Shown here: positions 12,499 through 14,517 of the stretch, one piece after another | How the letters are laid out: every line of letters begins with the position of its first letter | Numbering within the stretch: position 1 is the first letter of the stretch | Source of the DNA: Gammaproteobacteria bacterium | GTDB lineage: Bacteria; Pseudomonadota; Gammaproteobacteria; GRL18 | Direction: 5' to 3' | Assembly (NCBI GenBank): GCA_015488755.1 | Contig: WFNB01000020.1 | Location: forward strand, 1 to 53,430 | DNA length: 53,430 nt | The notes under the pieces: model-generated | Seen by the model: only the letters and a program-made list of their open reading frames with translations | Databases searched by the model: none | Told to the model about the DNA's origin: nothing | Program-made: the position numbers and the translations under genes

Positions 12499-12506
12499 TT
12501 GTGACT
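12499..12506. repeat. Left copy of the 8-bp target duplication of the MITE
   Basis: TTGTGACT begins directly after the stop codon of the diguanylate cyclase gene and recurs in direct orientation at 14510-14517, just outside the matching inverted arms. This is what a transposition target duplication looks like. Confidence 0.6.
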
Positions 12507-12621
12507 TATACGTAGGTACTTAAGGATAACTCTGTGTTTACGGAGGAAGTTTTTGCCACATGGATGTGGCAATAAAGCCTCCAGGGATGGATTTATGGTG
12601 TCTTGTGTAGTAAATACAGAG
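12507..12621. mobile_element. Left part of a split palindromic MITE-like element
   Basis: This part holds the arm GTAGGTACTTAAG (12512-12524), then GGATAACTCTGTGTTTAC (12524-12541), then an inner hairpin GCCACAT-GG-ATGTGGC (12555-12570) inside GGAGG/CCTCC, then GTAAATACAGAG up to 12621. The matching rest of the palindrome, TTATCC and CTTAAGTACCTAC, is found 1,849 bases further on at 14471-14509. Joining 12621 to 14471 restores a 154-base palindrome in which GGATAACTCTGTGTTTAC pairs with its partner at 17 of 18 positions. It has no transposase gene. The first base shared with the cassette junction is G12621. Confidence 0.7.
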
Positions 12622-12671
12622 TTAGCGTAAAATACCCCCAGTCCGGCTTAACTTACTGATATTTAATCGTT

Positions 12672-12700
12672 TTTACATGGCTTTGAATTTAATGTATAAT
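12672..12700 (+). promoter_or_regulatory. Strong sigma70-type promoter inside the cassette
   Basis: TTTACA at 12672-12677 and a perfect TATAAT at 12695-12700 are 17 bases apart, the ideal spacing. The start would be near 12707, only about 14 bases before the first ATG, so the leader is very short. Most cassettes rely on an external Pc promoter; cassettes with their own promoter often encode toxin-antitoxin or defence genes. Confidence 0.7.
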
Positions 12701-12720
12701 TCAATAATATTATTTAATGA

Positions 12721-13443
12721 ATGGAAATTATGACTCAGCTACCAAAGAAAATTTCACCCTGCCCTATTAAAGAGTCGGTGTTCGAAATAAGGTTTGATTC
12801 GGATTTTCCTGAAGATGCCATTTTTGGTATTTTGTATGAAAAATTTAAAGAGCAATATGCAAATGTCGAGCAATTGCCAATTTTACAACTTCCACAAGTT
12901 GTGCGCTCTCAAGATCCTAATTTAATTTATGCGCCCCATTATAAATTGACTCAAGAGAACACAACACTTCAAATCGGTCCAAAAGTTTTTTCATTAGCCC
13001 GTGATGGTGAGTATGTAGGGTGGGATGCATTTTATGATGAAATAATCGATATATATGATAAAGTTGAAAAAACAAATATTATTTCAAAACTTCAAAGAGT
13101 TGCTCTTAGATATATAAATATATTCGAGAATATGAATATATTAGACCATGCAGATTTTAAGGCTTATCTGGGAAGAAATATATTAAATAGTGAAAAAATA
13201 AACTTTTCAGCTGAGATTCCGTCTAAAAAATCAGTATTGCAACTTAAAATTATTAATGCTGCTGAATTTATTATTTCTAATAATGCTATTCAAGGCTCTA
13301 TCATAGATATTGATTCTCCCGTAAATTGTGATGATTTTGGTAGTTTTTCAGAGGCTATTAAATATTCTCATGATCAAGAAAAAATATTATTCTATAAAGT
13401 TCTTGGTGATAACTTTATTAAAACACTCAATCCCGAATACTAA
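12721..13443 (+). CDS. TIGR04255-like protein of unknown function (cassette gene 1)
   Basis: The 240-residue protein opens with the pattern of the sporadically distributed TIGR04255 family: KKISPCPIKESVFEIRF, then LQIGPKVFSLARDGEYVGWD and KLQRVALRYINIFE. No signal peptide, membrane helix or enzyme motif is visible. ATG at 12721 and ATG at 12730 are both possible starts; no clear ribosome site precedes either, in line with the very short leader. It is first in a three-gene cassette operon and is followed 15 bases later by the next gene. TIGR04255 proteins have no established function, and I infer none beyond cassette cargo. Confidence 0.75.
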   Translation: MEIMTQLPKKISPCPIKESVFEIRFDSDFPEDAIFGILYEKFKEQYANVEQLPILQLPQVVRSQDPNLIYAPHYKLTQENTTLQIGPKVFSLARDGEYVGWDAFYDEIIDIYDKVEKTNIISKLQRVALRYINIFENMNILDHADFKAYLGRNILNSEKINFSAEIPSKKSVLQLKIINAAEFIISNNAIQGSIIDIDSPVNCDDFGSFSEAIKYSHDQEKILFYKVLGDNFIKTLNPEY

Positions 13444-13458
13444 ATATAGGTAACTATC

Positions 13459-13749
13459 ATGAGCAATATAATAATTTCAAATATGGTAGGAGTTGTAGCT
13501 ACTGCAGTAGCAATAGGTTATTCTGGTTTTGGGGAACCTATTCCGCAAAGTAGCTTTTTATATGATAGTAATGAACCTATTCCTATTCTATTCTCTGATC
13601 ACTATCGACTATCCAATAGTGATTCAATAGCTTTATCAGAGCAAATAGAAACACTTAAACAATTCTCATCTTCAATATTGAATAATATAAAAGATATTGA
13701 ACCTGAATATACTGAATTAGTAGATGAGAAATTCTGGGACTTAATATGA
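13459..13749 (+). CDS. 96-residue protein of unknown function (cassette gene 2)
   Basis: I do not recognise this protein. Residues 3-25 are hydrophobic and rich in small residues (IIISNMVGVVATAVAIGYSG) and could be a membrane helix or signal-like segment. The rest is acidic, with a helix-like stretch from about 55 to 92 (SEQIETLKQFSSSILNNI). A ribosome site TAGGTAA lies upstream of the ATG. It overlaps the next gene by 4 bases (ATGA), which suggests fixed stoichiometry with it. It could be a membrane anchor or a small partner of its neighbours. Confidence 0.7.
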   Translation: MSNIIISNMVGVVATAVAIGYSGFGEPIPQSSFLYDSNEPIPILFSDHYRLSNSDSIALSEQIETLKQFSSSILNNIKDIEPEYTELVDEKFWDLI

Positions 13750-14369
13750 CCTCAATTGAGGAAATAAAAAAATACCTTCCTCAATACCTTTCAGCATCTG
13801 CTACTGTTTCTTTGTTTGAGGAATTAAAACAGTTCCCAAGTAATATTGATCAACGAATTTATACAGAAAGCCTTAAAGGCGAAAGTATAATATTTCAAGG
13901 TGACGGGTTAATGGGGCTATTGTATGTGAATTTACCTGACACTACTTCAAAACCGTTATTGGGCATGATCTTTTCAAACACTTGTGACACTGACGAAAAG
14001 AATGACAGGTTATTTGATGCGCGTATATCTTTTGCACCGATTTTTAATCTAAATAAATATAAATGTGCTCTAATTGAAAAATATGTTAATTCAAATAAAA
14101 AAACTATTCATGCTATTGACTCACATATCAATGATATTAAAAAACAAAATATAAGCCAGATTTTTTATCTTCCTAAAGGCAGTGGTTTAGAAAATGATTC
14201 AATAGTTTTTTTGGATCGAATAAATAACCTTCCATCAGGTTACTTTTCTAAAAACCAGATATTAGAAAATAGGCTTTTCACATTAAGTGACTATGGCTTT
14301 TATTTATTTCTTTTTAAGTTGTCAGTACATTTCACAAGAATTAGAGAAAGCGTTCAAAGAAGCAAGTAA
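13746..14369 (+). CDS. 207-residue protein of unknown function with an SNTCD motif (cassette gene 3)
   Basis: I do not recognise a named family. The most distinctive segment is LLGMIFSNTCDTDEKN (about residues 74-89), an S-x-T-C-D motif after a hydrophobic strand, seen in several uncharacterised proteins. It is followed by a beta-rich region (FAPIFNLNKYKCALIEKYV) and a C-terminal LFKLSVHFTRIRES. There is no signal peptide. It is translationally coupled to gene 2 through ATGA and ends 4 bases before the attC site, the usual arrangement for a cassette's last gene. A cysteine-dependent or metal-binding role is conceivable but unproven. Confidence 0.75.
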   Translation: MTSIEEIKKYLPQYLSASATVSLFEELKQFPSNIDQRIYTESLKGESIIFQGDGLMGLLYVNLPDTTSKPLLGMIFSNTCDTDEKNDRLFDARISFAPIFNLNKYKCALIEKYVNSNKKTIHAIDSHINDIKKQNISQIFYLPKGSGLENDSIVFLDRINNLPSGYFSKNQILENRLFTLSDYGFYLFLFKLSVHFTRIRESVQRSK

Positions 14370-14373
14370 AATA

Positions 14374-14470
14374 CGCTAACAAATAGCTCCACCGGACAAT
14401 TTAAAGCGGCACTTATTTTGCTAAAAAATCAGCAAAAACGTGCCGCTTTAAATTGCCGGTGAGCAAGGCG
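14374..14470 (+). other. Integron attC recombination site
   Basis: The 5' box CGCTAAC (14374-14380) is followed by an unpaired spacer and GCTC (14386-14389), which pairs with GAGC at 14461-14464. ACCGG pairs with CCGGT, and CAATTTAAAGCGGCAC (14397-14412) pairs with its reverse complement at 14440-14455. An inner stem TTTTGCT/AGCAAAA closes the tip. C14390 and A14396 have no partner; on the recombining bottom strand they are the extrahelical G and T typical of attC. The site ends GGCG and recombines at G14470^TT. The form resembles the Vibrio VCR layout. Confidence 0.88.
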
Positions 14471-14509
14471 TTATCCTGCCTCAGATATGCTTAAGTACCT
14501 ACCTATGAA
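14471..14509. mobile_element. Right part of the split MITE-like element
   Basis: TTATCC at 14471-14476 completes the GGATAAC/GTTATCC pair with the left part, and CTTAAGTACCTAC at 14490-14502 is the exact 13-base reverse complement of 12512-12524. An extra 13-14 bases (TGCCTCAGATATG) on this side would bulge from the stem. Confidence 0.7.
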
Positions 14510-14517
14510 TTGTGACT
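14510..14517. repeat. Right copy of the 8-bp target duplication of the MITE
   Basis: TTGTGACT repeats the sequence at 12499-12506 in the same orientation, just outside the right arm. Confidence 0.6.

Follow-up and report, generated by a model that had tools for sequence, protein, structure and literature searches.

How does an integron gene cassette come to stand alone, away from an integron? The question is raised by contig WFNB01000020.1 of a gammaproteobacterial assembly (GCA_015488755.1, Gammaproteobacteria bacterium, GRL18), of which we analysed the whole stretch from position 1 to 53,430 on the forward strand, hereafter the window. A preliminary description of this DNA had claimed that the segment 12622-14470 is a complete lone cassette with base-exact boundaries, and that it was either inserted away from its platform or had lost that platform. 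The segment is real and was correctly recognized as a complete lone cassette. Its features, and those of the element into which it is inserted, are collected in Table 1.

Table 1 Features of the cassette and of the interrupted element, in window coordinates
Feature	Position	Strand	Remarks
Left 9-bp target-site duplication, GTTGTGACT	12498-12506		Matches ATTGTGACT in 8 of 9 bases
Left part of interrupted MITE, 115 of 153 bp	12507-12621	+	Contains GGATAAC at 12524-12530
Integron gene cassette, complete	12622-14470	+	1849 bp; circular junction GTTAGCG is the reverse complement of R''
Promoter-like TTTACA-17-TATAAT	12672-12700	+	11 of 12 consensus bases; consensus match only
p1, 240-aa TIGR04255 family protein	12721-13443	+	NCBIfam TIGR04255, 114.3 bits (cut-off 30)
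p2, 96-aa protein	13459-13749	+	Conserved in most relatives, between the homologues of p1 and p3
p3, 207-aa MazF/PemK-fold protein	13746-14369	+	4-base overlap with p2; predicted fold
attC	14374-14476	-	R'' CGCTAAC at 14374-14380; R' is G14470 plus TTATCC contributed by the MITE; covariance model and folds
Right part of interrupted MITE, 38 bp	14471-14508	+	From comparison of the joined flanks with other copies
Right 9-bp target-site duplication, ATTGTGACT	14509-14517		8 of 9 bases match the left copy

A complete cassette with an attC site

When G14470 is joined to the TTAGCG that begins at 12622, the resulting GTTAGCG is exactly reverse-complementary to CGCTAAC, and the circularized cassette ends thereby form the full R' core expected of an integron cassette. 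Bases 5-7 of GTTAGCG deviate from strict GTTRRRY at two places, yet they mirror R'' exactly. The cassette is also lower in GC (0.308) than the window (0.378). The ends close as claimed, but GTTA stands at both of them (12621-12624 and 14470-14473), so that from the sequence alone the boundaries can be placed to within up to 4 bases. IntI cuts at G^TT, and because the cut position is taken from this chemistry, the boundary is base-exact by convention only. Judged by the cassette ends alone, another process that leaves a 4-bp repeat might have produced the same arrangement.

The bottom strand of an attC site is the recombinogenic one. In the window, the bottom strand of the attC folds at -34.1 kcal/mol, compared with -12.0 +/- 2.4 for shuffled sequences (z -9.1). 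Two of its bases are unpaired, a G opposite 14390 and a T opposite 14396, at the positions where attC sites carry extrahelical bases and in agreement with what had been predicted for this hairpin; complementary R'' and R' boxes and L boxes accompany them. We built a covariance model from nine attC sites on other contigs of the same genome, leaving out the window site; in the consensus hairpin of the nine-site alignment, compensatory changes occur at 12 out of 24 pairs. The model gives the site at 14374-14476 a score of 88.1 bits (E 1.5e-21), which is to be read with caution as one training site is 92% identical to the window attC. The next-best match in the window is the opposite-strand reading of the same hairpin (35.5 bits), and otherwise scores reach 21 bits. 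With a single attC by this model, the window falls short of a CALIN, for which at least two attC sites without an integrase are needed. An Rfam search of the window gave zero matches.

The hairpin at 14374 could instead be an ordinary transcription terminator and the segment a non-integron insertion, as a terminator-like match does lie within the hairpin. That match falls on the minus strand, however, and the hairpin agrees with the attC sites of arrays in the same genome in its R''/R' boxes, in its two extrahelical bases and in its covariance score. Contradicted by the covariance match and by the closure of the cassette ends, a terminator is highly improbable here.

The cassette interrupts one copy of a repeated MITE

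The preliminary description had also noted that removing the segment restores an uninterrupted palindrome. This is indeed seen in paralogues, but the palindrome is not unique DNA: it is one copy of a MITE that is present in about 60 copies in the genome. The complete element of 153 bp (12507-12621 plus 14471-14508) is short, has inverted ends and no transposase open reading frame, and is bounded by 9-bp target duplications, which other copies likewise carry. The left duplication begins where the upstream gene ends, on the last base of its stop codon. Because the two duplications agree in 8 of 9 bases, the flanks in the window form a pair, and it is unlikely that the contig was misjoined; several contigs of the assembly break at MITEs.

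Used as a query, the joined flanks (12504-12621 plus 14471-14515) have at least 39 genomic matches that span the junction, with identities of 91-98%, and G12621 and T14471 are joined directly in more than 30 aligned paralogous copies. There are 115 occurrences of the 12-mer ACAGAGTTATCC, most of them in paired arms of MITEs, and one of its reversed control. An empty site had been expected in close relatives. It was found in the paralogues, whereas the locus of the relatives has no MITE at all: in nine genomes of the same genus the diguanylate-cyclase gene and the TonB-receptor gene are adjacent, separated by a short gap, with neither MITE nor cassette. Empty targets are thus seen both in the paralogous MITEs and, in an older state, at the locus itself. 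No genome was found with a bare MITE at exactly this locus, the exact empty site being known from the paralogues. From the relatives that lack both elements we infer that the order was locus, then MITE, then cassette. Among 15 other members of the genus the MITE family was not found save for matches of about 25 bp in two genomes, and no transposase was found beside those matches.

One MITE copy elsewhere in the assembly (L085:216-260; contig C81, from 3231 onward) is cut off exactly at ACAGAG^TT and continues as TTCAGG and the end of a gene for a 234-aa protein, with neither an attC nor the right half nearby. This may reflect a rearrangement that an integrase made at the same core, or chance.

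The genome harbours integrases and cassette arrays

We looked for intI in the genome and found two genes above the curated cut-off of 265 bits for the integrase family TIGR02249, one at C30:32617-33558 (411 bits; open frame of 339 aa) and one at C12:12505-13440 (369 bits; open frame of 462 aa). Judged by these genes, a putatively active integrase would be available in the cell. Cassette arrays lie on contigs C105, C106, C114 and C115, and the covariance model matches attC sites on these four and on C110. A sister attC at C105:3257-3356 is 92% identical to the lone attC. Because the genome has two integrases and several cassette arrays, platform loss is not needed as an explanation, and of the two origins first proposed only insertion off the platform is retained.

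The origins suggested for CALINs include intI loss and rearrangement (review PMC8618304), and decay can leave lone attC sites, so the cassette might also be what is left of an earlier integron or CALIN in this place, its integrase and other cassettes deleted. Its ends, however, directly adjoin the two halves of one MITE copy, 91-98% identical to paralogues, and the 9-bp duplication lies outside those halves. There is no leftover sequence for a former platform, and in the nine relatives the locus holds an ordinary short intergenic gap. We regard a remnant as very unlikely.

The source of the cassette need not be one of the resident arrays. The lone attC is 93.5% identical over 92 bases to an attC in the cassette array of the Thiolapillus brandeum plasmid pTBH13, which indicates that this attC type travels. 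The 13.5-kb plasmid (NZ_AP012275.1; L134) has about ten attC-model matches, carries toxin-antitoxin, caspase-family and TIR-domain genes and has no annotated integrase; its array appears to be CALIN-like.

Other parts of the assembly also hold integron sequences. Two array contigs terminate in different 5' parts of integrase-like genes (L126:7200-7869 and L027:6593-6863), and the genome may therefore hold three or more integrons. The 3.4-kb contig C110 has no integrase, and at least two cassettes on it (L127:253-2870), the first with an 807-aa protein, lie shortly downstream of a gene end that resembles that of rapA; this may be another off-platform site. On contig C43, a weak lone attC-like hairpin (L029:16164-16249; 30 bits) directly 3' of a marC-like gene could be a relic attC or a terminator.

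A model for off-target insertion into the MITE

The data suggest the following course of events. The 153-bp MITE would first have landed on the stop codon of the diguanylate-cyclase-like gene and created the 9-bp duplication. At a later time, a circular cassette would have been acted on by an integron integrase, most likely from the same genome, and the folded bottom-strand attC of the cassette would have recombined with the core G^TTATCC of the right MITE arm. The outcome would be a cassette that stands alone and has a hybrid R' box (G plus TTATCC), an off-platform insertion of the attG kind: the target, the MITE core G^TTATCC, is neither attI nor attC, and the insertion lies at G^TT. Because integrases and arrays are resident in the genome, IntI most likely made this off-target insertion, an attG-type event. 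A promoter-like sequence of its own would permit expression and retention of the cassette away from an integron promoter. We put the probability of this explanation as a whole, that is, MITE insertion followed by off-target insertion by IntI at G^TTATCC of a putatively self-expressed cassette with putative toxin-antitoxin or defence cargo, at roughly 0.88 and consider it the best one.

A variant of this course is that the cassette entered a MITE elsewhere and that MITE and cassette then transposed together to the present locus. The 9-bp duplication encloses both and is compatible with either order, but no second cassette-bearing MITE occurs in the assembly, and a passenger of 1.8 kb is a large load for a 153-bp MITE. 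Joint transposition is improbable, and we treat it as a variant of the best explanation since it leaves the cassette insertion event itself unchanged.

It is also conceivable that the MITE palindrome is itself attC-like when folded, in which case the reaction would have been attC x attC and not attC x attG. GGATAAC and GTTATCC are exactly complementary 7-mers that bound a stretch of 104 nt, and the MITE arms fold as a long hairpin. Yet the helix is continuous around the core, with no unpaired spacer and no attC-type extrahelical bases, and five intact MITE copies gave zero attC-model matches at E up to 1, on which ground we rejected the MITE as an attC mimic. A reaction with a folded target is possible but less likely than off-target insertion at G^TTATCC, and an attC-like MITE seems to us unlikely.

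With about 115 palindromic GTTATCC cores, the MITE family might further be thought to provide dispersed landing pads for integron cassettes; if so, chromosomal integrons would export self-expressed cassettes around the genome. The right and left arms of the copies that we checked showed one cassette insertion only, and MITEs were discarded as preferred targets. With one occupied core site in about 115, the claim of a hotspot or preferred landing pad is not supported, and we think this reading quite improbable.

The cargo is a conserved three-gene operon

The near-consensus sigma-70 promoter-like site ends about 20 bases before p1, and 0.55% of leader shuffles score as well. The start of p1 may instead be an ATG a few codons downstream. 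For p2 no family match was found, and p3 has no match among Pfam, NCBIfam or PADLOC toxin families. The fold that best matches the structure model of p3 (pLDDT 81) is that of MazF (Z 10.6, rmsd 2.8 over 107 residues; Foldseek E 6.6e-4), and this predicted MazF fold would be consistent with a toxin role. For p1, fold comparison gave no convincing match, the candidates being tied around Z 8-9.

Most of the 13 homologous loci, which come from several phyla, keep the order p1-p2-p3, with p3 43-69% identical. In these loci (L112-L124), the set of TIGR04255, ~96-aa and MazF-fold proteins recurs across distant phyla. A class-wide sample of 369 genomes contained p3 in 5 other genomes. By the covariance model no attC was found beside 14 p3-homologous loci, and a folding scan of such loci gave only one weak, unconvincing hairpin (L118). 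As these homologues showed no attC by the model, it seems that the cassette arose by the capture of an ordinary operon from a genome. Some homologues have defence-type genes nearby: in L113 an N6/N4 DNA methylase next to a restriction gene of the helicase type, in L115 a TOTE conflict-system protein and in L120 an nSTAND1 protein.

Sedentary chromosomal integrons hold toxin-antitoxin cassettes, which are small operons with promoter-like sequences of their own. The present cassette resembles them in both respects and in its MazF-fold protein. It differs in having three genes, including a TIGR04255 partner, in being a putative toxin-antitoxin system, and in having homologues that are located outside cassettes. 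The literature that we searched does not name TIGR04255 and describes no function for the three-gene operon. With its predicted MazF-fold protein, the cargo is probably a toxin-antitoxin or defence module, which the promoter-like site may allow to be self-expressed.

Discussion

Off-target cassette insertion is already known but rarely documented. In attG insertions (Loot et al. 2024, doi 10.1038/s41564-023-01548-y, as described in the citing papers PMC12901181 and PMC12444791), cassettes enter the genome outside attI and attC. As far as those descriptions go, the insertion reported here is alike in this respect and differs in that it is a natural case with one copy of a multi-copy MITE as its target. 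CALINs (Cury et al., described in PMC8618304) are clusters of attC sites that lack an integrase, and off-target insertion is among the proposed origins of attC sites without an integrase (PMC8618304). The lone cassette shares with CALINs an attC that has no integrase nearby, and differs from them in having a single one. Because one attC is below the IntegronFinder default threshold of two (PMC12444791), standard screens would miss such a cassette.

MITEs and integron parts are also associated in Acinetobacter, where MITEs flank integrons and mobilise them (Gillings et al. 2009 and others, cited in PMC10969869). By that account the MITEs flank a whole integron there, whereas here the cassette lies inside the MITE and the MITE is the target. 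In the literature that we searched, no cassette inside a MITE is reported, and the links between MITEs and integrons are MITEs flanking whole integrons.

Because the same genome carries intact-looking integrons, the lone MITE-borne cassette is a clear natural example of off-target insertion. What is new is the target, a MITE with dozens of empty sites within the genome, together with the resident platform and the cargo. Off-target insertion is known from experiment, but proof is difficult for natural cases of single cassettes, since an empty site is seldom available and programs call clusters from two attC sites. Here, the multi-copy MITE supplies dozens of empty-site controls from the same genome, in addition to resident integrases and a sister attC. 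An accessory operon with its own promoter-like sequence is the sort of cargo that might persist away from a platform.
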